The translations under genes were made by a program, and so were the position numbers. A stretch of DNA of 64,000 nucleotides from Mycobacterium sp. (lineage in GTDB: Bacteria; Actinomycetota; Actinomycetes; Mycobacteriales; Mycobacteriaceae), in NCBI GenBank assembly GCA_003987775.1, contig RXJD01000003.1:220841-284840 (forward strand), given 5' to 3'. The notes beneath the pieces were generated by a model that was given only the letters and a program-made list of their open reading frames with translations, did not search any database and had not been told where the DNA came from. Positions 24,557 through 62,815 of the stretch are shown piece after piece. The stretch's first letter is position 1. Each line of letters starts with the position of its first letter.

Positions 24557-25918
24557 ATGTCCTTTGTCACAGCGGTTCCGGAGTTCTTGACGGCGGCTGC
24601 CGCTGATCTGGGGACCATCGGGTCCTCGATCGGTGCGGCCAACACCGCGGCGGCGGGCCCGACGTCGGCGTTGCTGGCTGCGGGCAGCGACGAGGTGTCG
24701 GCTGCCGTCGCGGCGATCTTCAACGAGCACGCGCGGGGCTACCAAGCGCTCAGCGCCGGGGCAGCGGAATTCCACCAGCGGTTCATGCAACTGCTGGCAG
24801 CGGGCGCCGGTTCCTACGCCGGTGCCGAGGCCATCAATGCCAATCCGCTGCAGAACTTCCTCAATCAGGTCAATGGGGTCGCCGAGACGCTGCTGGGGCG
24901 CCCGTTGATCGGCGACGGTCGCGACGGTGTCGACGGAACCGGCGCGAGGGGACAGAACGGTGGATTGCTGTGGGGAAACGGCGGTAACGGCGGGTCGGGG
25001 GCGGCCGGACAGAACGGCGGTCGTGGCGGCGACGGTGGCTTCTTGTTCGGCAACGGTGGCCGCGGCGGGGCCGGAGGCGCCGTTCCCAATGGCTTCGCGG
25101 GTTTCGGCGGTAACGGCGGCAACGCAGTCGGGCTGTTCGGCAACGGCGGCGCGGGCGGTGTCGGCGGAGCCGGCGGTACCGGGGTCGCCGGCGACGGCGG
25201 CGATGGTGGCGGCGGCGGGTTCCTGTTCGGCAACGGTGGCGTCGGCGGTGCGGGCGGACGCGGCTTCGTCGCCGGCTGGGGCGGCTTCGGCGGAGACGCC
25301 CTGGGCTTGCTCTACGGCGCCGGCGGCACCGGGGGTGCCGGCGGAGCCACCCCCTTCAACGGTGGCGTTCCCGGCCTCGGCGGTACCGGTGGCAGCGGCA
25401 ACATCCTGTTCAACCTGATCAGCACCGGGGCCGACGGCGGTGCCGGCGGCGACGCCGTCGGCAATACCACCGGTGGGCAGGGCGGGCAGGGCGGCAGCGG
25501 CGCCGGTCAGTGGCTCGGCTTCGGCGGCGCCGGCGGGGTCGGCGGCGCTTCGCTGGGCACCGGGACGGGCGGGCCCGGTGGGTTCGGCGGCGACGGCGGG
25601 GCCTTCTTCGGCCTCGGCGGGGCCGGCGGTAACGGCGGGGCTGCGGATGTCGGGGGCAAAGGCGGAGTAGGCGGGCTTGGTGGCCTCGGCGGCATCGTCT
25701 TCGGGCTCGGCGGCGCCGGCGGGAACGGCTTCGGTGCCGCCAACCTGGCAGTGGGCGGCAACGGCGGACAGGGTGGCTACGGCGGCATCCTGTTCGGCAT
25801 CGGCGGCCATGGCGGCAACGGGGGCATCGGAGCCACTCCGGGCATCGGCGCACCCGGCGGGTTCGGGGCTTATCTGCTGTTCGGCCCTAACGGGGCGCCG
25901 GGGTTGACGCCCGCCTGA
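24557..25918 (+). CDS. PE_PGRS family protein
   Basis: A 453-residue PE_PGRS protein. The PE domain covers about 1-95 (MSFVTAVPEFLTAAAADLG, ending with a YxxxE-like YAGAEAINA), with a linker GRPLIGDGRDG at about 115. The remainder is glycine-rich GGxGGx repeats interrupted by LFGNGG/LFGxGGAGG units, and it ends in LLFGPNGAPG. A CGGAGGTCGAA ribosome-binding site precedes the ATG. PE proteins are exported by ESX-5 (known for the family) to the cell surface. It converges with another PE_PGRS gene with only 22 bp between stops. Confidence 0.95.
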   Translation: MSFVTAVPEFLTAAAADLGTIGSSIGAANTAAAGPTSALLAAGSDEVSAAVAAIFNEHARGYQALSAGAAEFHQRFMQLLAAGAGSYAGAEAINANPLQNFLNQVNGVAETLLGRPLIGDGRDGVDGTGARGQNGGLLWGNGGNGGSGAAGQNGGRGGDGGFLFGNGGRGGAGGAVPNGFAGFGGNGGNAVGLFGNGGAGGVGGAGGTGVAGDGGDGGGGGFLFGNGGVGGAGGRGFVAGWGGFGGDALGLLYGAGGTGGAGGATPFNGGVPGLGGTGGSGNILFNLISTGADGGAGGDAVGNTTGGQGGQGGSGAGQWLGFGGAGGVGGASLGTGTGGPGGFGGDGGAFFGLGGAGGNGGAADVGGKGGVGGLGGLGGIVFGLGGAGGNGFGAANLAVGGNGGQGGYGGILFGIGGHGGNGGIGATPGIGAPGGFGAYLLFGPNGAPGLTPA

Positions 25919-25940
25919 GTGAGGAGAAGCGGCTTATCGA

Positions 25941-28900
25941 TCAACCGGATTGACCGTCGCCGCCACTAGTCGTGGCCAGATACGAGGCGCCCCCGTGGCC
26001 GCCGGCGCCGGGGAAGGCGCTCCCGCCGTTGCCGCCGAATTGGTCGCCGAAGTTCCCGAAGGCCCCGCTGCCACCGTCGCCGCCATCGACCCCACTGCTA
26101 CCTGCCCGCCCTTGCAAGCCCGCGTTGCTCGTGGCCGCGCTACCGCCGCCACCACCGCCCCCGACGGCGGCACCCAGACCGGTACCGCCGGCGCCACCAA
26201 AGCCGTTTAGCGCCTGGCCATTCCCGGCGAAGTTGGAGGAGTTGCCTCCAGTACCGCCCGTTCCGGAAACGGCGCCGATGCCGCCTGCCGCGCCCCCTCC
26301 GCCGCCACCGCCGCCGAATGCGATCTCGTCCATAGCGGCGCCTCCGCCACCGCCACCACCACCGCCACCCCTGCCGCCGACCGCACCCAGGGCGGCGGCA
26401 CCTCCGCCGCCACTACCACCGCCGCCTCCGCCAGCGGCGGCGCGGGTAATCAGGTTGACTGCCGTGCCGCCCGTGCCGCCGGTACCGCCCTTACCTCCGC
26501 TGCCACCGATGGCAGCGCCTCCTCCGCCGTCGCCGCCGCGGCCACCCGCGCCCCCGCCGCCCCCTCCTCCGGAGAACCCGGTGTGCGGGAAGGTGGTTCC
26601 AGAGTTGTTGGCGCCACCGATGCCGCCGTTACCGCCGTTGCCGCCGTTGCCACCTTGGCCGCCGAGGGTATTGCCAACCCCGGGTGCCCCGCCGGTGCCA
26701 CCGGCTCCGCCAGTACCACCCTGGCCGCCGGCTTTACTGGTGGTGCCGGCGGCTTTGGTGATATCGGCACCGCCTAGGCCGCCGGACCCGCCGGACCCAC
26801 CCTTGCCGCCGTTACCGCCCGCACCACCGCCGACACCGTTGATGCCGGCGCCACCCGTGCCACCGGTGCCGCCTGCACCGCCATTACCCCCGCTACCGCC
26901 GGCAGTAGCCTCGATGGGCGCTTCCGCGGAGATGCCGTCGAGACCCGACGCGCCATTGCCGCCATTGCCACCGATCCCGCCGGTGCCGCCGGTGCCGATC
27001 CCCCCGTCGGTGCCGCCATCGGTCCCACTGCCCGCAGCACCGGCGGTCCCGCCGGTACCGCCCTGACCACCAGCCCCACCGGCGCCGCCGGAGAAGCCGG
27101 TGTTGGCGCCGCCTAATCCTCCGGTTCCGCCAACACCGCCAACGCCGCCCTTCCCGCCGTTACCACCACCGGCGCCGTTGGCCCCGGCGCCGCCGGAACC
27201 GCCTCGGCCGCCGGCGCCGCCCTGTCCGCCCGGGCCGCCCGCGGTGGCCGCATTCCCGGACGCGCCATCGACGCCGGCACCTCCACTGCCGCCGTTGCCG
27301 CCGAGACCGCCGGTGCCTCCGGTGCCGATACTGCCGTCGGCACCGCCGTCAACGCCTGCACCGGCCGCCCCCGCAGCACCTCCGGTACCACCTTGACCGC
27401 CGGCGGCACCCGCCCCACCGGTATTGCCTGTGTTGTTTCCGCCGTTGCTGCCGGCCCCGCCGGATCCACCGACGCCACCCCTGCCGCCGGCACCGCCACC
27501 GAGGCCGTTGAAGCCGCCCCCTCCCGAACCCCCTCGGCCGCCAGCGCCGCCCTGTCCACCCTGGTTACCTTGGACGGGATCAGCGCCCGAGGCACCTGCG
27601 ATGGTGTTGTCGGCCCCCGCCCCACCATTGCCTCCCAAACCACCGACACCGCCCGTTCCGCCGGTACCGGTTGAGCCGCCGTCGGTGCCTTTGCCGGCCG
27701 CGCCCGCAGCACCTCCGGTACCGCCCTGACCACCGGCGGCACCCGCTCCTCCGGTGATACCGGTGTTGTCTCCACCGTTGCTGCCGGCCCCACCCGAGCC
27801 ACCGACGCCGCCTTTGCCGCCGGCGCCACCTCCAGTACCGCCGAATCCGGCACCGCCGTCACCGCCTTTTCCACCCGCACCACCCTCGCCGCCCTGATTG
27901 CCCGCGAGCGGATCCGCACCCGAGGCACCAGCACTGGCATTGTCGGCACCAGCCCCGCCGTTTCCACCCAACCCACCCACGCCCCCCGTGCCGCCGCTTC
28001 CGACTGCGCCGCCGTCGGTGCCGTTACCCGCCGCACCCGCGGCCCCACCGGTTCCGCCCTGACCCCCGGCCGCTCCCGCTCCACCGGTGATGCCGGTGTT
28101 ATTTCCGCCGTTGCTGCCGGCCCCACCGGACCCACCGACGCCGCCTTTGCCGCCGGCGCCACCTCCGACACCGCCGATACCGGCACCGCCCGCACCTCCT
28201 TGACCGCCGGCGCCGCCTTGCCCGCCCTGGTTACCCGTTACAGGAGTTGCACCCGAGGCCCCGGCGGCGTCGTTGTCTGCCCCTGTCCCGCCGTTGCCAC
28301 CCAAACCGCCGACGCCGCCGGTGCCGATGCCGCCAAGGGCGCCGCCGTCGGTACCGCTGCCCCCGGCACCCGCTGCTCCCCCGGTGCCACCCTGACCGCC
28401 GACGGCACCGCTTCCGCCGGTGATGCCGGTATTGGCACCCCCCTGTCCACCGGTACCGCCGACGCCTCCGACACCGCCTTTCCCGCCGGCTCCACCCCCG
28501 ACACCGCCAATTCCGGCGCCGCCGGCACCGCCTTTACCACCCGCGCCGCCCTGGCCACCGGGGTCTCCCCCGGTCGGCGTGACACCGGGCTGGCCGTCCA
28601 AGCCGGCCGCACCGCCACCCCCGGTACCCCCGGTGCCGCCGACGCCACCGACACCGTTCGCGCCGTGGGCACCGGCCGCACCGCCGATGTTGAAGGGAGT
28701 CGTCACTGCACCCCCGACCCCACCGGCTCCGGCGCTGCCGCCACCTCCACCGCTCCCACCGTCGCCCCCGATAGTGCCGTTGCCGCCGTGCCCGCCCTGG
28801 CCGCCGACACCGCCCAGGCCACCGGACCCGCCCGTACCAGCTGAGCCACCGATCAGTGACTGATCGGTGCCCCCGGCCCCGCCATTACCACCCACCCCGC

Positions 28901-29738
28901 CCATTCCGCCCGCGTGCCCGCTCAGTCCGCCGGGCCCCGGAGCACCCGCAGCACCGGAGGCCCCGGCACCGCCAATTCCACCAACCCCACCAGCCCCGGC
29001 TGACCCGAACAGCGAGATCAGCTGCCGGTTCGCCCCACCGGCCCCACCGTCGCCGCCCGCCCCGCCGGCCTGAAGGGTGCCGGCCGCGCCGGCCGCACCC
29101 GCTCCACCCGCACCGCCGGCCCCGCCGTTGCCGCCACCGAGAAATCCGTTTGCACCGCCGGATCCGCCGACGCCGCCCGCTCCGCCCGGGGTAGTGGCAT
29201 TCCCGCCGGCGCCACCGGCGCCACCCGCACCCCACAAGCCGGCCGATCCACCGCGGCCACCCGTCAGTCCGGGGGCACCCGATCCGCCGTCACCGCCGTT
29301 GCCCCAGATCCACCCGCCATCGCCACCGGCTTGCCCGGTGCCCGGCGCGCCATTGGCGCCGTTACCGATCAACGGGCGACCCGTGAGCGCCCTGATCGGG
29401 TCGAATGCCACCAGACTCTGGATGTCTTGCGTCAGTGTCTGCAACGAAGCCGCGCTCGAGGCCTCCGCTGCCGAATACCTCCCAGCACCTGCCAGGAGGT
29501 TCTGTACCAATCCCGTGTGCACAAGCGCCATACGAGCACTCAACGTCTGGAAGTCCTGCGCATAGGTACCGAAGAGGTTGGTCACAGCCGCTGACACCTC
29601 GTCGCCGGCCGGTGGTGCGATGGTCGTGGTCCACGGCGCCGCCGTGACACCGGCGGCCCGAAGAGCGTCTCCAATTCCGTCCACCTCGGTCGCTGCCGCG
29701 ATCAGAACCTCGGGATGGATGAATACAAAAGACGACAT
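25941..29738 (-). CDS. Large PE_PGRS family protein with tandem 111-residue repeats
   Basis: A 1265-residue PE_PGRS protein. The PE domain is at about 1-95 (MSSFVFIHPEVLIAAATEV; RYSAAEASSAA carries the YxxxE-type export motif), followed by the GRPLIGNGANG linker at about 120-130. The PGRS domain contains five consecutive 111-residue repeats (about 394-950), then a region with runs of GGGGG and a less repetitive C-terminus. A GGAGG site precedes the ATG. It probably goes to the cell surface by ESX-5. Proline-rich frames on the opposite strand are shadows of this GC-rich repeat. Confidence 0.95.
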   Translation of the reverse strand: MSSFVFIHPEVLIAAATEVDGIGDALRAAGVTAAPWTTTIAPPAGDEVSAAVTNLFGTYAQDFQTLSARMALVHTGLVQNLLAGAGRYSAAEASSAASLQTLTQDIQSLVAFDPIRALTGRPLIGNGANGAPGTGQAGGDGGWIWGNGGDGGSGAPGLTGGRGGSAGLWGAGGAGGAGGNATTPGGAGGVGGSGGANGFLGGGNGGAGGAGGAGAAGAAGTLQAGGAGGDGGAGGANRQLISLFGSAGAGGVGGIGGAGASGAAGAPGPGGLSGHAGGMGGVGGNGGAGGTDQSLIGGSAGTGGSGGLGGVGGQGGHGGNGTIGGDGGSGGGGGSAGAGGVGGAVTTPFNIGGAAGAHGANGVGGVGGTGGTGGGGAAGLDGQPGVTPTGGDPGGQGGAGGKGGAGGAGIGGVGGGAGGKGGVGGVGGTGGQGGANTGITGGSGAVGGQGGTGGAAGAGGSGTDGGALGGIGTGGVGGLGGNGGTGADNDAAGASGATPVTGNQGGQGGAGGQGGAGGAGIGGVGGGAGGKGGVGGSGGAGSNGGNNTGITGGAGAAGGQGGTGGAAGAAGNGTDGGAVGSGGTGGVGGLGGNGGAGADNASAGASGADPLAGNQGGEGGAGGKGGDGGAGFGGTGGGAGGKGGVGGSGGAGSNGGDNTGITGGAGAAGGQGGTGGAAGAAGKGTDGGSTGTGGTGGVGGLGGNGGAGADNTIAGASGADPVQGNQGGQGGAGGRGGSGGGGFNGLGGGAGGRGGVGGSGGAGSNGGNNTGNTGGAGAAGGQGGTGGAAGAAGAGVDGGADGSIGTGGTGGLGGNGGSGGAGVDGASGNAATAGGPGGQGGAGGRGGSGGAGANGAGGGNGGKGGVGGVGGTGGLGGANTGFSGGAGGAGGQGGTGGTAGAAGSGTDGGTDGGIGTGGTGGIGGNGGNGASGLDGISAEAPIEATAGGSGGNGGAGGTGGTGGAGINGVGGGAGGNGGKGGSGGSGGLGGADITKAAGTTSKAGGQGGTGGAGGTGGAPGVGNTLGGQGGNGGNGGNGGIGGANNSGTTFPHTGFSGGGGGGGAGGRGGDGGGGAAIGGSGGKGGTGGTGGTAVNLITRAAAGGGGGGSGGGGAAALGAVGGRGGGGGGGGGGAAMDEIAFGGGGGGGGAAGGIGAVSGTGGTGGNSSNFAGNGQALNGFGGAGGTGLGAAVGGGGGGGSAATSNAGLQGRAGSSGVDGGDGGSGAFGNFGDQFGGNGGSAFPGAGGHGGASYLATTSGGDGQSG
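26890..28559 (-). repeat. Tandem ~333-bp (111-residue) repeats in PE_PGRS
   Basis: Five consecutive units of about 333 bp within the gene. Each codes GGQGGAGGxGG, then GGVGGxGG, N-T-G-I-T-G-G, GGQGGTGGAAGA, TDGG, GGLGGNGG, ADN-x-AGASGA-x-P and GNQ. Units 1-4 are closest; unit 5 is more diverged and a degenerate sixth follows. The spacing shows, for example, in the GGATCxGC(A/G)CCCGAGGCACC block at about 27580 and 27910. Confidence 0.8.
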
Positions 29739-50863: not shown

Positions 50864-52282
50864 CTACTGCGGGGAGTTCGCCGGAGGTAGAAGCGTTGTC
50901 GGCGTGGACATTTCGACAACAGCCGCAGAATCAGGTTCAGCACACCGGACGGCAGCGCGACGGGCGTTGCGTTTGCTGCCGTTGAACAGATCGCAGAGGC
51001 GGTCCACCGCCCAGACGGTGCGCAGTCCGAGCCGGCCCAGCATCATGAAGGGCGGAAACTTGGGTTCCTCCTTCCAGATGCCCTCAAGATCCTCGTGCCG
51101 CTTTCCGTCGACGATCAGGTCCGCGATGAGCGACCCGACGTACGGCGCCTGGGTCAGCCCGTGACCGTTGCACGCGAGCATGTAGAAGACGTTGTCGCCG
51201 AGCTGTCCGGCAATCGAAAGCCAGGACGAGGTGATCGCGATCCAGCCTCCCCACGCCCGCGCGACTCGCACGTCGGCCAGGGAAGGAAACCGCGTCGCGA
51301 AAGCGGCAGCGAGTTCCTTGACGAGCCCCGGATCGGGCGCCTTCACCGGGAGCGGGTACTTCTTGCCGCGCTCGAGTCGTCGGACGCCGAACACGATGGT
51401 GTTGCGCTCGGTGAGGCGGTAGTTCTCCATGATCTGGTGTTGCGTCACCACTCCCGACCGGCTGCTCCATCCCAGTGCGGCGAGACGCTCCGGCGCGATC
51501 GGCTCCGTTTCCACCTCGATGATCCACGCGGGCACCGAAAGACGCTTGGGAGTGATGTCCCACTCGCCGGAGTAGGCGTTCGTCGCGAGCACTACCTTGT
51601 TCGCACGAACTGTGCCACGAGGGGTCGAGATCACGACCTTTCCGCCGTCTCTCCTGACATCGGTGACCTTGGTCTGCTCGAATACCCGAGCCGATGTCGA
51701 CAACAGCGCACGCCGGACACCGCGGCTCAACTTGCCGGGATTCAACATCCCACCAACGCCCTCGCGCATCCCCCCGACGAACGCGCGAGGAATCCCCAGC
51801 TCCTCGCTCGTGCCGACATGTCCACGGCCGCCCGCGCCCCTCAGAATCGCGGCGCAGGCGCGGACTCGAAGCATCTGGACGCGCGACACTGCGCCGAACA
51901 CCATCCCGTTGGGCTCGTAATCGCAGTCGATGTCGTGGTCCCGGATCAGGCCTTCGGCGAACTGTGCCGCGTTGTCGGCCAGCCGGACCATGCCCGGAAT
52001 CTGGTTGGGGTAGAAGAGCTTGAGCAGCCGCAGGTCCCCACCCGGCGCGCCCGCGATCTGTCCGCCATTGCGGGAGCTGGACCCGTAACCGCAGAACTCC
52101 GCCTCCAAGAGCACCACATCCTGCTGGCGCTCGGCGAGCCGAAGTGCCGTCGCCATGCCGCCCATACCGCCACCGATCACTGCGACATCACACGTGAGGT
52201 CGCTGATCAGGGCGGGCCGGACGTCGGTGGGCGGGTCGATCCAGCCGCTGAAGGTGCTGTACTCCACTTCGTCGATTGTCAT
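50864..52282 (-). CDS. FAD-dependent DAO-family oxidoreductase
   Basis: A 472-residue flavoprotein of the glycine oxidase/D-amino-acid-dehydrogenase/gamma-glutamylputrescine-oxidase superfamily. The dinucleotide fold is DVAVIGGGMGGMATALRLAE (about 32-51) with VLLEAEFCGYGSSSRNGGQ, typical of PuuB-like enzymes. ARAWGGWIAITSSWLSIAGQ and NGHGLTQAPYVG near the C-terminus match FAD contacts. It probably oxidises a C-N bond in an amine or amino acid. Its ATG overlaps the stop of the upstream membrane-protein gene (ATGA). Confidence 0.9.
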   Translation of the reverse strand: MTIDEVEYSTFSGWIDPPTDVRPALISDLTCDVAVIGGGMGGMATALRLAERQQDVVLLEAEFCGYGSSSRNGGQIAGAPGGDLRLLKLFYPNQIPGMVRLADNAAQFAEGLIRDHDIDCDYEPNGMVFGAVSRVQMLRVRACAAILRGAGGRGHVGTSEELGIPRAFVGGMREGVGGMLNPGKLSRGVRRALLSTSARVFEQTKVTDVRRDGGKVVISTPRGTVRANKVVLATNAYSGEWDITPKRLSVPAWIIEVETEPIAPERLAALGWSSRSGVVTQHQIMENYRLTERNTIVFGVRRLERGKKYPLPVKAPDPGLVKELAAAFATRFPSLADVRVARAWGGWIAITSSWLSIAGQLGDNVFYMLACNGHGLTQAPYVGSLIADLIVDGKRHEDLEGIWKEEPKFPPFMMLGRLGLRTVWAVDRLCDLFNGSKRNARRAAVRCAEPDSAAVVEMSTPTTLLPPANSPQ

Positions 52283-52962
52283 GACAGCGCACTCACTTTC
52301 TGTGTCGGTTCAATATCTGTCGTCAGGTGGGCGTGCAGCGCGCGGTACGCGAGGTAGTAGACGACGCCCTGGGCTCCCCACGTCGCAAGCGCGGCGGTGT
52401 AGAAGAACGTGCGGTTCTCGTCGTCGAAGGCGAAGGGGAAGAAGTCATAGCTGATCGCGATGGCGGTCGCCGCGGCGGTGACAGACGCCGCCCAGATGGC
52501 CAGCCGTTTTTCGCCAATGCCCCAGAGCCTCACAACGAAATAGGTGAGGAACACCGTGGTCAGCAGGTTGACCACGACGTAGAACGTCGCCGGTATGACG
52601 TGGAGTGTCTCGTCGTGGAACTTCCGGAGGCACAGGCCGGCCGCGACGGCGAGCCCGAAGACGCCGATTTCGACGGCAATGGTCGGCTTGTAGCGGTGCG
52701 TAACCACCAGCAGACCCAACACCAGGATGAGCGTGAAGCCGACCGACCGTGAGAACGCGTCGAGGAAGAACGAAATCTGGAAGGGGATGCCTGCGGTTGC
52801 ACCGAGTAGCGACCCAACCAGGAAGTTGGTGGCTGACACCCCGACGACAAAACATTCCAGGCCGAGCAGGTAGTTGCCGTAGTTCCGGATGAATTTCCAC
52901 CCGAGGAAATAGCCGACGACAACCAACCAGACATTGGCGATGAGGAAGACGTATTCCTTCAT
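52279..52962 (-). CDS. Seven-helix membrane protein of unknown function
   Basis: A 227-residue integral membrane protein with about seven hydrophobic segments (about 5-20, 30-55, 70-87, 94-110, 122-145, 152-170, 185-208). The N-terminus is MKEYVFLIANVWLVVVGYFL. No known motif is recognised. It is the first gene of the leftward arm, coupled to the DAO-family oxidase, so it may be a substrate permease or quinone-linked partner. The start lies about 30 bp from the edge of the mirror-image promoter. Confidence 0.8.
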   Translation of the reverse strand: MKEYVFLIANVWLVVVGYFLGWKFIRNYGNYLLGLECFVVGVSATNFLVGSLLGATAGIPFQISFFLDAFSRSVGFTLILVLGLLVVTHRYKPTIAVEIGVFGLAVAAGLCLRKFHDETLHVIPATFYVVVNLLTTVFLTYFVVRLWGIGEKRLAIWAASVTAAATAIAISYDFFPFAFDDENRTFFYTAALATWGAQGVVYYLAYRALHAHLTTDIEPTQKVSALS

Positions 52963-52993
52963 TGCCGCGACTCCTTTCGCAGTGCAGTTGGCT

Positions 52994-53172
52994 CAACTGT
53001 CGCCAGCCGCAATCGCAGTCACAACGACAGCGCGCACCTGCTTTGGCGATAGGAGGTGCATATTGCACCCGTCGCATCTCCTGGCGATTCGCACCGGTGC
53101 ACGTTGCACCAGTCCTGTTCAAAGCCGGTGCGCGTTGTCGTTGTGACCGAGGGCGCCGGTTGGCGAGAGTCG
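52994..53172. promoter_or_regulatory. Mirror-image bidirectional control region with two symmetric palindromes
   Basis: The divergent promoter region is an imperfect palindrome of about 179 bp. The arms 53018-53045 and 53120-53147 match at 26 of 28 positions. Inside, GGTGCATATTGCACC (53055-53069) and GGTGCACGTTGCACC (53096-53110) lie at exactly mirrored positions about the centre (53082.5), 41 bp apart. Outside, 52994-53008 and 53158-53172 still match at 12 of 15 with a one-base shift. It probably drives the membrane-protein/oxidase arm and the monooxygenase arm identically; the PucR regulator at 57080 is the best candidate ligand-responsive protein. Confidence 0.75.
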
Positions 53173-53208
53173 AAGCACCAAGAAGGGAACAGCGAGGAGT
53201 TGGCAGCG

Positions 53209-54753
53209 ATGGCAGCAGATCCAGTGACCACGGTCGAGGAGTTCGACCGAGAATTCGATATCGTCATCATCGGAGCGGGAATCTCGGGGATCGGTGCGGC
53301 AACGTATTTCAGCCGCGAACTCCCCCACAAGTCCCTGATGGTGCTCGAGGGCCGCGACAACATTGGCGGCACCTGGGACCTCTTCCGGTATCCGGGTATT
53401 CGCTCGGACTCCGACCTCCACACCTTCGGGTACGAATTCAAGCCGTGGCGCCATGACTCGGCGATCGCCGACGCGCACCTGATCCGGGAGTACCTCCAGG
53501 AAACGATTGACGAGAACAACCTGGGGCGCCTCATCCGGTTCAACCAACGCGTCGTGCGGGCGGAGTGGTCCTCAACGGACTCGAAGTGGACGCTGAGTGT
53601 TCAAATCACTGACCCCGCAACGGGATTCACCACCGCGAAGACCATCCGTGCGGGATGGGTCTTCGCAGCCACCGGTTACTACCGCTACGACCACGGCTAC
53701 TCGCCGGAGTTCCCGGGACGTGAGGCCTTCGAGGGTTTGGTGGTGCACCCCCAACACTGGCCGGAGAATCTCGACTACAGCGGCAAAAGGGTCGTCATCA
53801 TCGGCAGCGGCGCAACCGCGATCACGATGGTGCCGGCGATGTTGACCGGCACCGCCGCCGCGCAACACGTGACGATGTTGCAGCGCACCCCGACCTACAT
53901 CATGGCGATTCCCCGCGTCGACCGTGTCGCTGTCGCGCTCACGAAACTTCTTGGCGCCAAAAGGGGTTACGCGGCGACGAGGTTCAAGAACATCTGGGTC
54001 GAACGGGCGATCGTGAAGGGTCTCAGGGCGTTTCCGAAGACGGGGCGGCGGCTGATCCGGCGCGAGAACATCAAGCGCCTCCCCGTGGGGTTCGACGTTG
54101 ACAAGCACTTCAACCCGCCCTACGACCCATGGGACCAACGGCTGTGTGCAGCGCCTGACGGCGACTTCTTCGACGCGATCTGCTCCGGTAGCGCCTCCGT
54201 CGTCACTGACTCCATTGTGAAATTCAGCAAGCACGGAATTGTGCTGGCGTCGGGCGAGGAGCTGGTAGCCGACATCATCGTGACCGCGACCGGGCTGAAC
54301 ATGCAGCTTTTCGACGGCATGCCGATCATGGTCGACGGGCAGCAGGTCGACATCGCCCAGTCGTTCTGCTACCGCGGGATGCTCCTGAGCGGAATCCCGA
54401 ACTGGGCGATGGCCATTGGCTACACGACGTCGTCCTGGACCCTGAAGATCAGCCTGATGTGCCGGTACTTCATCGACCTGGTCAAGCACATGGATGCGCA
54501 CGGATACGACCGGGCGGTCCCGATCCCCCTTCCGGGCATGGACCGCAGGCCAGTCATGGATCTCCAATCCGGTTACGCCAAGCGTGGCGCGAAGATCTTG
54601 CCCAAACAGGGTCCGGCCGCACCTTGGCGGATGGCGATGTCATACCAGGAGGACGCCAAAGCACTGCGCGGTCCGGTGGCCGACGAGAACCTCGATTTCG
54701 GTACCAGCCAGTCGACTTCGCAGCGTGCACAGAGCCGGCCGGCACATGTCTGA
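53209..54753 (+). CDS. Baeyer-Villiger-type flavin monooxygenase (EthA-like)
   Basis: A 514-residue FAD/NADPH monooxygenase. The first Rossmann motif is IIGAGISGIG (about 20-29), with RDNIGGTWDLFRYPGIRSDSD. The Baeyer-Villiger fingerprint F-x-G-x3-H-x3-W is Phe174-Gly176-His180-Trp184 (FEGLVVHPQHWPE), and the second Rossmann motif GSGATA is at about 199-204. ATGLN near residue 365 is also typical. Such enzymes turn ketones into esters or oxidise S/N atoms. The ATG at 53209 has GAGGAG upstream. It overlaps the hydrolase gene by 8 bp. Confidence 0.93.
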   Translation: MAADPVTTVEEFDREFDIVIIGAGISGIGAATYFSRELPHKSLMVLEGRDNIGGTWDLFRYPGIRSDSDLHTFGYEFKPWRHDSAIADAHLIREYLQETIDENNLGRLIRFNQRVVRAEWSSTDSKWTLSVQITDPATGFTTAKTIRAGWVFAATGYYRYDHGYSPEFPGREAFEGLVVHPQHWPENLDYSGKRVVIIGSGATAITMVPAMLTGTAAAQHVTMLQRTPTYIMAIPRVDRVAVALTKLLGAKRGYAATRFKNIWVERAIVKGLRAFPKTGRRLIRRENIKRLPVGFDVDKHFNPPYDPWDQRLCAAPDGDFFDAICSGSASVVTDSIVKFSKHGIVLASGEELVADIIVTATGLNMQLFDGMPIMVDGQQVDIAQSFCYRGMLLSGIPNWAMAIGYTTSSWTLKISLMCRYFIDLVKHMDAHGYDRAVPIPLPGMDRRPVMDLQSGYAKRGAKILPKQGPAAPWRMAMSYQEDAKALRGPVADENLDFGTSQSTSQRAQSRPAHV

Positions 54754-55669
54754 CAACGCAGGCGACCAGTACGCTGCCCTACCGTCCGGGACGACGATTT
54801 GTTTCCGCGATTTCGGCGCTCGGCACGACCCGACACTCCTGCTGATCGCCGGGCTGGGCGAGGATCTGACCGTCTGGACCGACGCTTTCGTCGGATCGTT
54901 TGTCGCCCAAGGCTTTCGGGTCGTCATCATGGATAACCGGGACGTCGGTCAGTCCACGTTCGTCGCAACGCCGCCACCCCGAATGTGGCGTCAGGTTCTT
55001 GGCTGCCCGCGCAGTGACGGTTACTCGCTGGCGGACATGGCCGACGACTGCGTCGGGGTGCTCAACCATCTCGGGATCGCTCACGTTCACCTGGTTGGAC
55101 GATCGATGGGAGGAATGATCGCGCAGACGATAGCCGCGACCGAGCCTCAACGAGTCCTGTCCCTGACCTCCATCTACTCGACCACCGGGTCGCGCAAGGT
55201 CGGCCAACCGGCTCTGTCGACGATCCGCCTGCTCATGGGCCCGCCGGCGAGAACCAGAACCGCAGCGGTCCGCGCCCACCTGCGCATCACCGGCCACATC
55301 GCCGGATCGGCGTACCCCATCGATGACGTCGACGAGGCCGCAGTCGCAGCGCGCGGCTGGGATCGCAGCGGCGGCGACCAGGCCGCCGGCGTGGCCCGCC
55401 AGATTCAGGCAATCCAGTCCTCTGGAGACCGCACCGCACAGGTGCGCCGGATCGTCGCTCCAACGCTGGTCATCAACGGCGATCGAGACCGGATGGTGAA
55501 TCCCAGCGGCGGCACCGCAACCGTCAGCGCAATCCGATCGGCACAGCACGTCGTCATCCCCGGGATGGGCCATCACATTCCCAGGGCCCTGGTGGGCCCG
55601 ATTACCCAGTACGTCTCACAGCACGCGGACCGCGTCAACCAAGGAGGAAGCCGTGTCGAAATTTCCTAA
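54746..55669 (+). CDS. Alpha/beta hydrolase
   Basis: A 307-residue alpha/beta-fold hydrolase. The oxyanion segment is LLIAGLGEDLTVW, nucleophile Ser120 in GRSMGG, acid in NGDRDRMV and His in GMGHHIP. It most likely hydrolyses an ester or lactone produced by the upstream Baeyer-Villiger enzyme, a standard ketone-degradation pairing. It overlaps both neighbours (8 bp and 17 bp), so it is co-translated. Confidence 0.92.
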   Translation: MSDNAGDQYAALPSGTTICFRDFGARHDPTLLLIAGLGEDLTVWTDAFVGSFVAQGFRVVIMDNRDVGQSTFVATPPPRMWRQVLGCPRSDGYSLADMADDCVGVLNHLGIAHVHLVGRSMGGMIAQTIAATEPQRVLSLTSIYSTTGSRKVGQPALSTIRLLMGPPARTRTAAVRAHLRITGHIAGSAYPIDDVDEAAVAARGWDRSGGDQAAGVARQIQAIQSSGDRTAQVRRIVAPTLVINGDRDRMVNPSGGTATVSAIRSAQHVVIPGMGHHIPRALVGPITQYVSQHADRVNQGGSRVEIS

Positions 55670-57041
55670 GGACGGCGCTGACGTCGCATCCGTCGATGTC
55701 GTGATCGTCGGTGCCGGCTTCGCCGGCCTGAGTGCCGCAGATCGCCTGACGAGCATGGGCCGGTCGGTCATGGTCCTCGAAGGCCGTAGCCGCGTCGGTG
55801 GCCGATCGCTCACCGGTGAGGTGGCCGGGGTCAAGGTCGACCTGGGCGCGACATGGGTCGCGCGACGGCACACAGCGATCCGCGACCTCGCCACGCGCGT
55901 GGGATGCACCACGACCGGTCAGTTCAACCAGGGCCGCAACGTTCTATGGATGGATGGACGGCGCCAGACCTACAAAGCCACCATTCCCGCGATCTCACCG
56001 GCGGCCATGGTGGACATGGCGCGCATGAGCATGCATTTGAAGAAACTGGTGGCGACCATCAACGTCGACGCCGCCTGGGAATCCCCAGACGCCGCGCAGC
56101 TCGACACGATCTCTTTCGGCAAGTGGCTCGATCGCAAACGCGCCAGGGCCAGCACGCGTGCGCTGATGACCATCGTCAGCAAGGTGCAGTGGGGCGCCAG
56201 CCCGGAAGACGTCTCGCTACTTCATGTGTTGCGCTACATCCGCGCCGCGGGTGGGATCGACCACATGCTGGACGTCGAGGGCGGGCAGCAGCAAGACCGA
56301 TTCAACGAAACCACGCAAGAGATCGCCAGACGGCTTGCCGAGAAACTCGGCGACAGTGTGGTTGTGGACGCGCCCGTTCGACGAATCACCCAAGACGACA
56401 ACGGCGTTATGGTGTGCACCGACTCGACACAATTCAACGCCCGATACGCCATCGTCACCACGGCCCCCGCCCACCGCGGCGGCATCGCGTTCGAACCCGC
56501 GCTCCCGGAAAAGGCCGCGGGACTCACGAAGACGTGGCGCATGGGCGCGCTCAGCAAGGCGTTCGTCGCCTATGAGACGCCGTTCTGGCGGACCGACGGA
56601 CTTTCCGGCGAGGCACTGATCGACGCCGGGACGGTGTTCATCACCTTCGACGTGTCGCCCGATGCTGCGGGCCCGGGCGTCTTGATGGCTTTCTGCGACC
56701 CCCGCACATTCGACGGTTTCGGCCCGGACATCCGACGCAGCCGCGTCATCCAGCAGATGGTCGATTTGTACGGCAACCAAGCGAGCAGCCCCATCGATTA
56801 CATCGACCATTGTTGGGGCACAGAAGCATTCGCCCCTGGCGGACCGAATCCCGCGGTAGCGCCCTACGCGTCGACGAGCTACGCCAGCGCCCTCACCGAA
56901 CCCCACGGACGCATCCACTGGGCCGGCACCGAAACCGCAGGCGAGTGGGCCGGATGCATGAACGGCGCCGTGCTGACCGGTCTGCGGGCCGCCGAGCGGG
57001 TCACCCAGCTACTCAACGTCGAGGAGCCGGCCCCGGTGTAA
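55653..57041 (+). CDS. Flavin monoamine oxidase-like protein (AofH type)
   Basis: A 462-residue amine-oxidase-family flavoprotein. The FAD fold is DVVIVGAGFAGLSAADRL (about 15-32) with LEGRSRVGGRSLTG. The C-terminal FAD motif is IHWAGTETAGEWAGCMNGAVLTG, with VFITFDVSP and WGTEAFAPGG before it, matching mycobacterial AofH-type putrescine/amine oxidases. It would oxidise an amine to imine/aldehyde with H2O2. The GTG at 55653 has a strong AAGGAGG and overlaps the hydrolase end by 17 bp. Confidence 0.92.
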   Translation: MSKFPKDGADVASVDVVIVGAGFAGLSAADRLTSMGRSVMVLEGRSRVGGRSLTGEVAGVKVDLGATWVARRHTAIRDLATRVGCTTTGQFNQGRNVLWMDGRRQTYKATIPAISPAAMVDMARMSMHLKKLVATINVDAAWESPDAAQLDTISFGKWLDRKRARASTRALMTIVSKVQWGASPEDVSLLHVLRYIRAAGGIDHMLDVEGGQQQDRFNETTQEIARRLAEKLGDSVVVDAPVRRITQDDNGVMVCTDSTQFNARYAIVTTAPAHRGGIAFEPALPEKAAGLTKTWRMGALSKAFVAYETPFWRTDGLSGEALIDAGTVFITFDVSPDAAGPGVLMAFCDPRTFDGFGPDIRRSRVIQQMVDLYGNQASSPIDYIDHCWGTEAFAPGGPNPAVAPYASTSYASALTEPHGRIHWAGTETAGEWAGCMNGAVLTGLRAAERVTQLLNVEEPAPV

Positions 57042-57079: not shown

Positions 57080-58315
57080 ATGGAGGAACTGTGGGCCCTG
57101 CCCAACCGCGAGGTCGCAGAAGCGATCCGGTCACTGTGCCAGCAGCTCATGACGGACACGGACGCCGTGACCGACGACATCGCGTCAGCCGCCCTCATGG
57201 TGCAATACGAACCTGCGCTGCTCCCGGATGCATCGCTCGTCGAGGAGGACCGCCACCTCAACCACTCCGATCTTGTCCAGTGGCTCACCTCGAACATCCA
57301 GCATCCGGGGCAGCGGGTCGAGCCCTACATCGGCCCCAGGATCGCGGCGTACATTCGCGACCTCGTATCCCGCGGCATCGCACCCGATTTCGCCGGCGGA
57401 TGGCGGGTGGCGCTTGACGTCGGCTGGCGCCGATGGCTCGAAGAATGCGTGGCACGCTATGGCAACTCCGACGTCTTGGTGGACGTGCTCGACGTGTCGG
57501 CGAAGTCGTTGGTGCAGTACGCCATCGACTCGGTCTCAGCCTTGCGGGAGGCCAGCCTTGCGGCCGCGATGGGTAACGCGGATGCCGACGCGATCGCGCT
57601 GATCCAACTGATCGCCAGTGGCGCGCCCATGACCGAGGATCTTGCGGAGGCACGCCTGAGATACCGGATGAACCGGCCGCACGTCGGCCTCGTCGCGTGG
57701 ACCGACGAACCTCAGCAGGCCGGCGCATTGGACGAGGTGGTCGCTGCCGTGAATTCCGCTTCGGCAGGTCGGAGCGTCCTGGTGGCCCGTGCGAGTACTA
57801 CCTCGCGTTGGGTCTGGCTATCAGGGCCCGACGCTCCGGATCTCCACTATGTCGAGAAGGTGGCGGCGCAGGCGAAGGGCATTCAAGTGGCGGTCGGAAG
57901 GCCGGGGCACGGACTCGAAGGATTCAGGTCTAGCCACCAGGACGCCCTGGCGGCCCAGTCGTTGGTGGTGCGGCTCGGATCCGACCGGCGCTTTACGGCG
58001 TACGCCGACGTCGAGCTCGTCGACAGCCTCACCAAGGACCGAGTCAGCGCACAACGGTTCGTCACCAAAACTCTCGGACCGTTGGCCGAAGCAGACGAAG
58101 CGTTGCGCCAGGCGCTGCTGACCTACGTGCAGTGCGGCTTCAATACCACTCGGGCAGCGGCCAACCTGTACGCCCATCGCAACACTGTCGAGCGTCGGGT
58201 CTCACGCGCCAACGAACTCTCCGTGGTGAAAGTGGAAGACAACCCAACCCATGTCGCCGCTGCACTCCTGGTGCTGGATATTGCGCCGAATATTGCGGCA
58301 GCCGCATCCTTCTGA
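57080..58315 (+). CDS. PucR/CdaR-family transcriptional regulator
   Basis: A 411-residue regulator. The N-terminal helical sensory part spans about 1-170, a GGDEF-like/CdaR middle about 180-300, and a C-terminal PucR helix-turn-helix: LLTYVQCGFNTTRAAANLYAHRNTVERRV (about 350-378 region). The ATG at 57080 has AGGGGAG upstream. It lies 38 bp after the amine oxidase, as the last gene of the rightward arm. PucR proteins activate catabolic genes for purines, amines or similar compounds. It is the natural candidate to bind the GGTGCA-N3-TGCACC sites at 53055-53110. Confidence 0.92.
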   Translation: MEELWALPNREVAEAIRSLCQQLMTDTDAVTDDIASAALMVQYEPALLPDASLVEEDRHLNHSDLVQWLTSNIQHPGQRVEPYIGPRIAAYIRDLVSRGIAPDFAGGWRVALDVGWRRWLEECVARYGNSDVLVDVLDVSAKSLVQYAIDSVSALREASLAAAMGNADADAIALIQLIASGAPMTEDLAEARLRYRMNRPHVGLVAWTDEPQQAGALDEVVAAVNSASAGRSVLVARASTTSRWVWLSGPDAPDLHYVEKVAAQAKGIQVAVGRPGHGLEGFRSSHQDALAAQSLVVRLGSDRRFTAYADVELVDSLTKDRVSAQRFVTKTLGPLAEADEALRQALLTYVQCGFNTTRAAANLYAHRNTVERRVSRANELSVVKVEDNPTHVAAALLVLDIAPNIAAAASF

Positions 58316-59375: not shown

Positions 59376-60674
59376 TCAGGTGCCGGTAGCCGCCAACTCG
59401 GCCGGCCCGATGTACCCCGGCGCCTCGCTCGTCCCGAACATGTCGTCGAAGACCCGGAACCGATCGAAGGTCAGAGCGTGCTGCCGCGCTCTCATCTCCA
59501 TCGCGTGTCGCTCGGACTCCGGCAACGAGATCGCCTGGTCGATGGTTTCCGCGAGCGCCGCCCGGTCGCTGTGCGGCACGATGAACGCGGTGTTGCCCAC
59601 CGCTTCCCCGGTCCCACCGGTCAGGCAGGTGATGATGGGGCCACCGCCCGCGAGCATCTTCTCGGCCAGCGCGATCCCGAAGGTCTCGACGAACTCCGGT
59701 TCCGGCCGCGTCGGCAGGGCGTAGGCCGCGCAGCCGCGCATCAGCAGCGGCTTCTCGTCGTCGTCCACGTCACTCAGGAAGACGATGCGATCGTCCCCCG
59801 CCGCCAGGTCCTGATACTCCTGCAGTTGCGGTCCGCTGCCGGCGACGACGAGCTTGACCTTCTCCGCCGCAGCGGAATCGCGGTAGGCGTGGATCAGGTC
59901 GTCCACACCCTTGGCCCGAGCGACCCGGGACAGGAACAGGACATAGCCGTTGCGCTCGAGCCCTCGACTGGCCAGGACCGCCTCAACGGCTTCCTCGTCA
60001 AGGTCGAGGAACGCCCCGGTGTCGATCGCCGGGTAGCTGGTCTCGATCCGATCGCGACATTCCTGCGCGAACCGGGTCCCGGCACGTTCGTCGAGTTCGG
60101 TTGCCGCGGCAACGATCTCGTCCTTCGTGTATTCCGACACGGCGACGACCCGGTCGCTGCCTAGGTAGCGGGCCATCAGCGCGATCGCGGCACCGACCGC
60201 CCCGTCGAGCAGGCAGTTGCGAATCACATTCGTGACATCCGACCCGACCGCCTTCGCGATCGTGGTGACATCCGTGTCGAGACCTGCCGTGGCGGCCGCG
60301 CTCACCGCGTCCCCGACCACCGTGGTGTGCGGCATCAGGTACATCGACAAGCAGGTCGTCGGAACACCGTCGGTGAGCAGTTCCACCAGGCGCCCGGTGA
60401 GGCCGGCCAGGTAGCGACCGTCTGGGACGCGGTAGTCACCGACCGGTTCGGGCCGCTCGACGGTGATGCCGGGACTGTACTCCTGCAGGCGATCCAACGG
60501 TTTCAACGGGAGTCCCGCAGCTTCCAATACGGGAATCGGCCACGTCAACAGTCGAACGTCGTCGAACCCGCGCTTCAGCGCGACCTCGGCGAGGTTACGG
60601 GCCTCGCCGCTGTGGCCGCAGATGACCGGGTCGGCTCGGACGATGATGACGAGACGACGAAAAGGACGCTTCAT
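59376..60674 (-). CDS. GT-B glycosyltransferase (GT4-like)
   Basis: A 432-residue glycosyltransferase. The N-terminal Rossmann half has VIIVRADPVICGHSGEARNLAEVAL. The C-terminal nucleotide-sugar half has LFLSRVARAKGVDDLIHAY, VVAGSGPQL and the EFVETFGIALAEKMLAGGGP segment with the E-x7-E-type motif. Family placement is GT4-like; donor and acceptor are unknown. The ATG at 60674 overlaps the mannosidase stop (ATGA), so the two are one operon. A pairing of a transferase with an alpha-mannosidase suggests turnover or remodelling of mannosylated glycans. Confidence 0.88.
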   Translation of the reverse strand: MKRPFRRLVIIVRADPVICGHSGEARNLAEVALKRGFDDVRLLTWPIPVLEAAGLPLKPLDRLQEYSPGITVERPEPVGDYRVPDGRYLAGLTGRLVELLTDGVPTTCLSMYLMPHTTVVGDAVSAAATAGLDTDVTTIAKAVGSDVTNVIRNCLLDGAVGAAIALMARYLGSDRVVAVSEYTKDEIVAAATELDERAGTRFAQECRDRIETSYPAIDTGAFLDLDEEAVEAVLASRGLERNGYVLFLSRVARAKGVDDLIHAYRDSAAAEKVKLVVAGSGPQLQEYQDLAAGDDRIVFLSDVDDDEKPLLMRGCAAYALPTRPEPEFVETFGIALAEKMLAGGGPIITCLTGGTGEAVGNTAFIVPHSDRAALAETIDQAISLPESERHAMEMRARQHALTFDRFRVFDDMFGTSEAPGYIGPAELAATGT

Positions 60675-62815
60675 GGTGCCCCCTGGGTCGTTGGGACGGG
60701 ACCGCGGGCCGACGGAGGTCTCTCCGACCGGCCCCACGAACTGGGTTCCGGACCCAGCTCGATGTGCAGCGTTCCTGCTGCGTGCAGCTCCTCGGCAGAG
60801 ATGTAGGTTCCCTGAAGCGGTGTGCCGTTGAACGTTGCGGCTTGCACGTACTGCACCGGTGGAGTCGAGTCGATGCCGTCGGACCCGATCGGCTGCTCGA
60901 CGAATCCACTGGTCGTGATGGTCAAATCTTTGCCTCGGATCAGTAAGCGAGAACGCTCGAAAGCCGGAGTGTTCACCAAAAAGAGACCTTGGCCGGCCAC
61001 TGGGAAGAGCCCCAGCGACGCCCACACGTACCAGGCGGATAGGCCGCCGCTGTCGTCGTTACCGGGCAGGCCACCGGGGCCGGTGCCGAACTGCCACGTC
61101 AGCGCCGCGTGCACCACCTCGGCCGTCCGGTCGGGTCGGCCGGCATAGTGGTAGGCCCACGGGGCCTCCATGTCCGGTTCGTTGTTCAATCCCTCGAACC
61201 GGTTGAGCGCGTAACCGAACTCCATCTCGGCGGGCTTCGGTTCGATGCCCGGCTGGGTCACCGGTTCGGCGCAGTAGCCGAAGAAGGCGTCGAGCATGCC
61301 GACGAAGGCCTCGTCCCCGCCGGCAAGAGCGATCCGCCCGGCCATGTCGTGCATCAACCGGAACGAGTAGTTCCACTTACCGCCCTCGTAGTACTCCGAG
61401 TCCTTCAACAGGCCGTTCGAGGCGTCGAACGCGTTCACCCAACCCGCGCTGCGCTCCTCGGACTCCAAGGCGAGCCGGGTGTCCCCCACCGCGCGGGCGA
61501 CCTTGGCGGTGCAGTAGTGGGCGTAGGCGAGGTCGAGGGTGTGGGTGATGGGGTGGACGATGCCCTTCTCGATGAAGTCCTCGCCGTACATCCGCCGCAG
61601 GTCGTCGACCATGTGGACCAGGGCCCAACTCCAGTCGATCTCCCGCAGGTGTAATTCCTGCGCGTCGGCAAGGGCGGTGTGGGCCAACGCGCTCGCCTGC
61701 CTGAAGAACCGGTCCGCCCCGCGGGCCATCCGGTAGCCGACCGGGAAGTTGCCCTCTTCCTCGCAGACCCGGATCAATGACTCCAGGAGGTCCGCGGCCC
61801 GTTCCGGCACGATCGCCATGAGCAGCGGGATCTGGGTCTTGTAGATGTCCCACATGGTGCAGACGTCGAACGCGAACGGCCCGCTGTTGGGCCAGAACGG
61901 GGACTCGTCGTCACCGAAACAGGGCTTGATCAGGGAGTGGTAGAGCGCGGTCCCGAAGACCTGACGGCGCGCCTCGGAGCCACCTTCGACCTGGATCAGG
62001 TCGAGGTGTTCCTTCCACTTCTTCCGGGTCCGGGCGCGGACGACGCTGAAGGCGTGCTTGCCGCTATCGCACTCGGTGCGCAGGTTGTCGGTTGCCTGCT
62101 CGGTGCCGCGCAGGGAGAACCCGATCCGGACCTCGATCACGGTCCCCGCCTGGGCCGGCCCCATGAACAACAGCCCGAACGGCCGCAGGGTGGTCGGGCG
62201 GATGTAGTCGAAGTCGAGCCGGGTGCCCCCTTCGATCAGTCGCTTGTCGTGCCAGAGCATCTGGCGCCAACCGGGGGCCTCGACCTCGACGGCGACCGAG
62301 AGCGGCACCCCCTCCATCACTACGGTGCCCTGCGCCTTGCCGCGGCCAAGGTTCTCGACCTGCGCGCGCAGCGGCACCGTCCGACCGTGCTCGATCACCA
62401 AGCCGCCGCACGAGAGGTCGAGCACGACGCGTGCGTTGCGGTGCTCGGGGAACGTGTAGCGGTGAACCGCCACCTTGTCCCCCACGGTGATCTCGCACCG
62501 GATGCCGTTGTCGAGGGTCGCCGCGTAGTACCCGGGCGACGACGTCTCGGCGTGGAGCGCCCACGCGGTCCCGAGGTTGTCCAGCGGGTCCAGCATCGGC
62601 GTCACTCGGGCGTAGTTGTAGTACTTGCGAATCGCCCCTGTGCCGGACTGCTGGAAGTGCGTGAACCCTGACGCCTGGGTCTCGGCGAAGATCTCCGGCG
62701 GCAGTCCCTCGGTGATCTTGGGGTACCGGCCGTAACCGGTCGGGTAGGCACCGGAGTACGCGCAGGCGGACACCATGCCGAACGGGGAGACCGCTCCGGG
62801 GTGGGTGTTGCCCAC
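60671..62815 (-). CDS. Glycoside hydrolase family 92 alpha-1,2-mannosidase, 5' end unresolved
   Basis: A 714-residue GH92 enzyme when read from the GTG at 62815. It has VGNTHPGAVSPFGMVSA at the start, TMWDIYKTQIPLL, the EFGYALNRF segment and the family signature GNDDSGGLSAWYVWASLGLFPVAG, with catalytic-site Asp residues. GH92 enzymes are calcium-dependent exo-alpha-mannosidases. GH92-like sequence continues upstream in the same frame (H-I-D-P-F-I-G-T at 62902-62879 and WWWPKP before the GTG) up to a TAG at 62923-62921, but no ATG, GTG, TTG or CTG lies there. Either the 5' end is frameshifted or truncated, or an unusual start (ATT at 62899) is used. No signal peptide is visible. Confidence 0.85.
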   Translation of the reverse strand: MGNTHPGAVSPFGMVSACAYSGAYPTGYGRYPKITEGLPPEIFAETQASGFTHFQQSGTGAIRKYYNYARVTPMLDPLDNLGTAWALHAETSSPGYYAATLDNGIRCEITVGDKVAVHRYTFPEHRNARVVLDLSCGGLVIEHGRTVPLRAQVENLGRGKAQGTVVMEGVPLSVAVEVEAPGWRQMLWHDKRLIEGGTRLDFDYIRPTTLRPFGLLFMGPAQAGTVIEVRIGFSLRGTEQATDNLRTECDSGKHAFSVVRARTRKKWKEHLDLIQVEGGSEARRQVFGTALYHSLIKPCFGDDESPFWPNSGPFAFDVCTMWDIYKTQIPLLMAIVPERAADLLESLIRVCEEEGNFPVGYRMARGADRFFRQASALAHTALADAQELHLREIDWSWALVHMVDDLRRMYGEDFIEKGIVHPITHTLDLAYAHYCTAKVARAVGDTRLALESEERSAGWVNAFDASNGLLKDSEYYEGGKWNYSFRLMHDMAGRIALAGGDEAFVGMLDAFFGYCAEPVTQPGIEPKPAEMEFGYALNRFEGLNNEPDMEAPWAYHYAGRPDRTAEVVHAALTWQFGTGPGGLPGNDDSGGLSAWYVWASLGLFPVAGQGLFLVNTPAFERSRLLIRGKDLTITTSGFVEQPIGSDGIDSTPPVQYVQAATFNGTPLQGTYISAEELHAAGTLHIELGPEPSSWGRSERPPSARGPVPTTQGAP

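Follow-up and report, generated by a model that had tools for sequence, protein, structure and literature searches.

Two mirrored copies of a predicted PucR-type promoter unit in the divergent control region of a mycobacterial flavoenzyme cluster

In the window, which is the whole stretch of 64,000 nucleotides analyzed here, the divergent genes MEM and FMO are separated by 246 bp that are mirror symmetric around position 53082.5. We propose, with a probability of about 0.8, that this gap carries two back-to-back promoters activated by a PucR-type regulator, the pucR gene being located in the right-hand operon and thereby placed under positive feedback; we infer binding, activation, start sites and the ligand from sequence comparison. 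Each copy of the unit consists of a palindrome (A), a box B located 31 bp downstream over the predicted -35 region, and a weak -10-like hexamer 30-31 bp further.

Results

Organization of the cluster

The features of the locus are presented in Table 1. Palindrome A is a full inverted repeat and box B only half a palindrome, and both are at a fixed spacing from the -10-like hexamer of the predicted promoter. The two divergent ORFs have relatives on both strands, and the promoters between them are predicted from conservation only. The usual -10 consensus begins with T, which the hexamers of the window do not. The start of FMO was set by its relatives and by a GAGGAG upstream. Because the genes overlap or almost abut, MEM-DAO on the left and FMO-ABH-AOX-PucR on the right are probably transcribed as one transcript each. 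The regulator carries the PF13556 (E 2.7e-10) and PF17853 (E 2.6e-16) domains. Further along the window, at 59376-62815, overlapping minus-strand ORFs correspond to a glycosyltransferase and a family-92 glycosyl hydrolase.

Table 1. Coordinates of the control region, its predicted elements and the flanking genes in the window
Feature	Coordinates	Strand	Sequence	Remark
Mirror-symmetric divergent control region	52993..53173	none		centre 53082.5
Palindrome A, left (MEM) arm	53055..53069	none	GGTGCATATTGCACC	counterpart in seven other two-armed loci
Palindrome A, right (FMO) arm	53096..53110	none	GGTGCACGTTGCACC	site also upstream of FMO relatives
Box B, left arm	53024..53038	-	GGTGCGCGCTGTCGT	centre 31 bp from A
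Box B, right arm	53127..53141	+	GGTGCGCGTTGTCGT	centre 31 bp from A
-35-like hexamer, left (predicted)	53019..53024	-	TTGTGA	overlaps box B; 17 bp to -10-like hexamer
-35-like hexamer, right (predicted)	53141..53146	+	TTGTGA	overlaps box B; 18 bp to -10-like hexamer
-10-like hexamer, left (predicted)	52996..53001	-	GACAGT	30 bp from B centre
-10-like hexamer, right (predicted)	53165..53170	+	GAGAGT	31 bp from B centre
MEM, 227-aa hydrophobic (membrane-type) protein	52279..52962	-		relatives found; no match in Pfam or NCBIfam
DAO, FAD-dependent oxidoreductase (PF01266)	50864..52282	-		4-bp overlap with MEM
FMO, flavin-binding (FMO / Baeyer-Villiger type) monooxygenase	53209..54753	+
ABH, alpha/beta hydrolase	54746..55669	+		start chosen by eye
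AOX, flavin-containing amine oxidase (PF01593)	55653..57041	+
PucR-type regulator (GGDEF_2 PF17853 + HTH_30 PF13556)	57080..58315	+		last in right operon; proposed activator

Mirror symmetry of the control region

The initial annotation had described this region as an imperfect palindrome with two mirrored operators and weaker symmetry further out, and this description was confirmed. The arms 53018-53045 and 53120-53147 (28 nt) are complementary at 26/28 positions (93%), and the outer arms 52993-53009 and 53157-53173 are still 82% complementary. The two A palindromes are exact copies of GGTGCA-N3-TGCACC with centres 20.5 bp on each side of 53082.5, that is 41 bp apart, and the B boxes (GGTGCGCGYTGTCGT) are centred at -51.5 and +51.5. 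When the intergenic region was aligned with its own reverse complement, we observed 74% identity across 181 bp (52993-53173; E 2.8e-19, in one genome). The symmetry is far beyond chance: the best ungapped inverted pair scored 22, compared to a maximum of 11 among 300 dinucleotide-preserving shuffles of region 52963-53208 (0/300 reaching 22).

An ungapped 90-bp dyad scan of the whole window gave a slightly higher score at centre 26779, within a PE_PGRS-like coding sequence, than at 53082.5 (52/90 vs 51/90). Among the other best-ten dyad centres (n=9), eight were located in glycine-repeat (PE_PGRS-like) ORFs and one, 30498.5, outside them. Such ORFs occupy both strands of the window at 24557-29738.

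In its own 7.29-Mb genome, the exact A palindrome was found at three places, compared to one for the reversed control. At the third place, the palindrome is flanked by an Rv1453-like PucR gene on one side and a monooxygenase paralogue on the other. A looser pattern gave further places on contigs C54 and C84.

The predicted promoter unit in related loci

A profile search of genome contigs with the MEM alignment yielded 104 relatives, and we retained 80 loci; many of these relatives adjoin a DAO or AOX relative. An FMO relative with at least 70% identity and its start inside the locus was present in 24 of the 80 loci. Within 300 bp upstream of FMO, we observed a palindrome matching at 11/12 positions or better in 22 of these 24, and the remaining two (L039 and L053) carried a 10/12 palindrome at -101 and -108; each of six control palindromes gave 0/24. 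For the Streptomyces sites with at least 11/12 matches, 98-107 bp separate the palindrome centre from the point where the FMO match begins. Overall, several actinobacterial genera have the unit (palindrome A, followed by box B at 31-32 bp and a -10-like hexamer 30-31 bp beyond B) approximately 100-135 bp ahead of the monooxygenase gene, as a single copy in the case of Streptomyces.

Among the 56 loci without such an FMO, five carried the site upstream of MEM. Four of them (L009, L011, L015 and L016) are related mycobacterial clusters with a single unit facing MEM, and the fifth (L013) lies at a contig end, its FMO being on another contig. The 22/24 FMO relatives and the single-unit loci indicate that the unit accompanies these enzymes and also exists alone. 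The earlier proposal of an inverted duplication of one promoter-operator is supported by these single units, found before FMO in Streptomyces and others and before MEM in the four mycobacterial clusters.

Some loci carried additional copies. In Streptomyces locus L019 (3577), a second module lies about 150 bp before a divergent dehydrogenase-like gene (identified by eye), between PucR and FMO, and L021, L031, L033 and L052 carry a further 11/12 palindrome at 2037-2044; the second module and the extra palindromes suggest a wider regulon. The Tsukamurella cluster (L042, L145) has palindromes upstream of DAO and at other places, a spread suggestive of a multi-promoter regulon.

Spacing in divergent two-unit loci

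We compared 13 divergent MEM/FMO loci, M. asiaticum among them. The unit was present on both sides in eight of the 13 (mycobacterial or nocardial), on the FMO side only in the Actinopolyspora and Nocardioides loci, and in S. bikiniensis, G424 and G545 we found one palindrome and no box B above the threshold used. The distance between the two A palindromes was 41 bp in the window, 40 bp in M. houstonense, G262 and M. asiaticum, 19 bp in N. cyriacigeorgica, 18 bp in G109 and in G012, whose left A (11/12 match) was seen with the looser pattern and missed by the stricter one, and 0 bp in G016, where one A is shared. The initial annotation had emphasized the 41-bp, four-helical-turn spacing of the window. 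A four-turn phasing between the palindromes was rejected, since this distance differs among the eight species. The same data bear on the possibility that the mirror itself is maintained, the inner palindromes being one unit in which phased dimers interact over four turns in a loop or cooperative complex. The 41 bp of this locus and the 40 bp measured in three further species, near four turns, would fit such a complex, but those of 18, 18 and 19 bp in three species, the single shared palindrome of a fourth and the frequency of single-arm promoters make it improbable.

By contrast with these varying distances, the distance from A to B was 31 bp in 16/16 arms of the eight two-armed loci, the B of M. 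asiaticum having been placed by the 31-bp rule before GGTGCGC was seen there. Over 32 collected arms (these 16 and 16 chosen from other loci), it was 31 bp in 25 and 32 bp in 7. This collection excludes A sites lacking a clear B, at L003, L042 (two), L014, L088, L011 (edge), L168 and L171, as well as two AOX sites whose B has diverged (L009, L015). From the B centre to the -10-like hexamer we counted 31 bp in 22/32 arms and 30 bp in 5/32, with no match to the hexamer pattern, which was chosen after seeing the sequences, in the remaining 5/32. In G016, the single A is exactly 31 bp from both B boxes, and in its MEM arm AGTG replaces GGTG at the same position with the 31-bp spacing kept. These distances place the conserved ruler within each arm and not across the mirror. 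Among the eight two-armed loci, the near-perfect mirror was particular to this genome.

The contigs of the M. asiaticum assembly break at the inverted repeat (L013 1-243, and the L101 contig ends), and L101 appears folded back, the FMO leader flanking the core on either side; this may be either an assembly artefact or a real inversion. A long inverted repeat at which the contigs of one relative break could also be a hairpin, the ends of a mobile element or a recombination site, with no promoter pair at all. We consider this very improbable: the arms are kept beside their genes across species, single units facing a gene also occur, and the 31-bp ruler is promoter-like.

Likeness of the arms

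Within one locus, the two arms of the window match at 25/27 positions, compared to 15-21/27 in the seven other two-armed loci. Between species, arms of the same side were alike at 0.82 (MEM-MEM) and 0.79 (FMO-FMO), while opposite arms were alike at 0.71 within one species and 0.70 between different species. Since same-side arms of different species are more alike than the two arms of one species, the duplication looks old. A recent duplication as a general explanation was rejected for the other species on the same ground.

The arms of the window are 0.80 alike mutually, compared to 0.62-0.79 (FMO) and 0.73-0.82 (MEM) with their counterparts. Its MEM arm starts AAAGCAGG, as FMO arms do, whereas the seven other divergent MEM arms start CGAAC; in L009 and L011, the single MEM arm starts CAAAGCAGG. 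In a weakly supported arm tree, the window arms fall cleanly with neither side. A retained old state or local gene conversion would both explain this likeness.

Association of the palindrome with PucR genes

We assembled a group of 34 genomes with an FMO relative, the palindrome or both near MEM, including those of L014, L020 and L059, which have no site upstream of MEM/FMO (L020 being cut by a contig end). All 34 of these genomes contained a PucR relative with an E value no worse than 1e-40 (identity 63-82% in 26 and 35-41% in the others), compared to 17/45 other genomes, none above 41% identity; G327 and G352 were counted in both groups. In L009, L011, L015 and L016, a distant PucR homologue shares the contig with MEM, no more than approximately 14 kb away, and the PucR gene is preceded at about 1 kb by a perfect palindrome.

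Independently of PucR, we scanned genomes with a 14-base pattern combining A and GGTG at the 31-bp spacing. It was found in 50/297 genomes of the genus vs 5 for the reversed control, and was hardly enriched in the class (41/394 vs 29). A subset of the places matched, 55 loci, had their neighbourhoods examined. Five were the MEM/FMO cluster, ten were beside Rv1453-related PucR genes (L178, L182, L184, L190, L192, L195, L200, L207, L211 and L212) and 40 were neither; many of these 40 are near-identical across genomes and may be conserved coding sequence. Closer inspection of six PucR-adjacent loci showed a second site in five, at 73 bp (L178), 62 bp (L184, L190, L200) or 31 bp (L207) from the first, and none in L182. 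Six PucR proteins were scanned against NF050824, the Rv1453-family model, whose cut-off is 600 bits. Those of L178, L182 and L190 pass, and those of L003 (594.9), L139 (320.8) and the window (244.6) are below; the window protein is a relative and not a member of this family, and it shares 27-36% identity with the Rv1453-type proteins encoded next to the motif.

The converse search used NF050824, independently of the motif, and gave 65 matches in 33/98 genomes of the genus, of which 30 loci were examined. The palindrome was present within 1 kb upstream in 17/30, the upstream positions of two incomplete loci (L250, L253) being uncertain, and absent there in 13/30; six control palindromes gave 0, 0, 0, 1, 0 and 0. 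Paired palindromes, 62 or 72 bp apart, were seen in 5/30. The two scans overlap, L231, L234 and L236 being the same as L195, L190 and L182.

Rv1453-type PucR genes with paired upstream sites, 62, 72-73 or 31 bp apart, were found at L178, L184, L190 (=L234), L200, L207, L229, L231, L232 and L233. Such pairs are probable autoregulatory or divergent operators. PPE-like ORFs (identified by eye) adjoin PucR in L178, L184, L190 and L200.

Taken together, the co-occurrence, the motif-first and family-first scans and the third palindrome of the own genome make PucR the likely ligand of A, with the specificity extrapolated to a window protein that is only a relative of the Rv1453 family. The earlier guess of PucR gains from the association of the palindrome with PucR genes elsewhere. 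As an unpublished criterion for Rv1453-family regulators, we propose GGTGCA-N3-TGCACC near PucR or its presumed targets; the palindrome was found in the window, ahead of the operon containing pucR, and at the 17 family-first loci.

A different regulator has to be weighed against this assignment. The palindromes could be operators of a repressor or of a non-PucR regulator (IclR-type like MhpR, or a global factor), PucR being a bystander. The published MhpR site, GGTGCACCTGGTGCACA, resembles A in the excerpted account (PMC8222616), and the 13 PucR-family loci without the site, like the 40 motif loci without PucR or FMO/MEM, would agree with it. We nevertheless consider it unlikely: no IclR-type protein was found among the 12 window proteins scanned, the site recurs before Rv1453-type PucR genes whose neighbourhoods are different, where control palindromes are almost absent, and all the genomes picked for FMO or the palindrome carry a PucR relative.

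Discussion

Under the proposed reading of two PucR-activated promoters, the cluster PucR would bind A (centre approximately -74) and B (approximately -43) on one helix face, positions that assume a transcription start 7 bp after the hexamers. B would overlap the -35 region, with A stabilizing the binding to B, and ligand-bound PucR would recruit RNA polymerase. The MEM-DAO and FMO-ABH-AOX-PucR operons would switch on together, and PucR would raise its own synthesis through the right operon, acting as a positive-feedback switch. We propose activation because A and B fall in the range bound by GabR, the PucR-type activator of gabTDP in C. glutamicum, which needs two inverted repeats and binds from -87 to -23 according to the excerpted account (PMC7652997). 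A repressor acting at the same sites seems less fitting, since the handful of studied PucR-type regulators named in that excerpt are described as activators, B. subtilis PucR acting both ways (PMC7652997).

A bolder extension would explain the A-31-B-31-(-10) ruler by a PucR tetramer, its two dimers three helical turns apart and in contact with RNA polymerase, the back-to-back arrangement allowing one complex to fire both promoters. We hold this as tentative and rather doubtful. If it were true, one dimer in G016 would serve two opposite promoters at once, and paired sites at 31/62 bp would be a general operator grammar for the Rv1453-type subfamily; the pairs of L178 and L233 (73 and 72 bp) are off this spacing.

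Few PucR-type regulators have a known operator, and the comparison predicts, for the Rv1453-like branch, a specific recognition sequence and a spacing that can be tested. The predicted operator for this little-studied branch is the most useful new part. The comparison also connects the conserved flavoenzyme cluster with a predicted activator encoded locally, and the natural spacing variants (a shared site, 18, 19, 40 and 41 bp) could separate the effect of the promoter unit from that of the symmetry. In the open-licence literature, we found no report of this operator or of the mirrored arrangement, and no link between PucR and a monooxygenase.

Comparison with known systems

The closest system is GabR-gabTDP of Corynebacterium glutamicum, which also combines a PucR-type regulator with a divergent intergenic region (PMC7652997). 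As excerpted, GabR requires two inverted-repeat sites just upstream of the -35 region for strong binding; A and B, the latter only half a palindrome, would be their counterparts at the predicted promoter here. It differs from the window PucR in having no GGDEF-like domain, and its site is 21 bp long. The excerpt mentions no mirrored module, whereas two full modules stand back to back here, and pucR is inside one of the two operons, unlike in the GabR system (PMC7652997).

MabR (Rv2242) shares with the window PucR a GGDEF-like domain with an HTH and has other target genes; in the excerpted structural study, both its dimer and its tetramer are said to fit a palindrome occupying two adjacent major grooves (PMC11617747). 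Binding of this kind would suit the 9-bp half-site spacing of A. The operator of E. coli MhpR, of the IclR family, is listed in the excerpt as a 17-bp site and shares the GGTGCA/TGCAC half-sites with A (PMC8222616).

The Rv1453 family (NF050824), in the genus loci of the family and its relatives, has the same palindrome within 1 kb upstream in 17/30; some of its genes differ in adjoining PPE-like ORFs (by eye), and not a MEM/FMO cluster. Overall, a divergent activator-controlled promoter pair is a known kind of region; judged from the comparisons made here, what is new is an operator predicted for one branch of PucR, together with the 31-bp ruler and a clean series of natural layouts.
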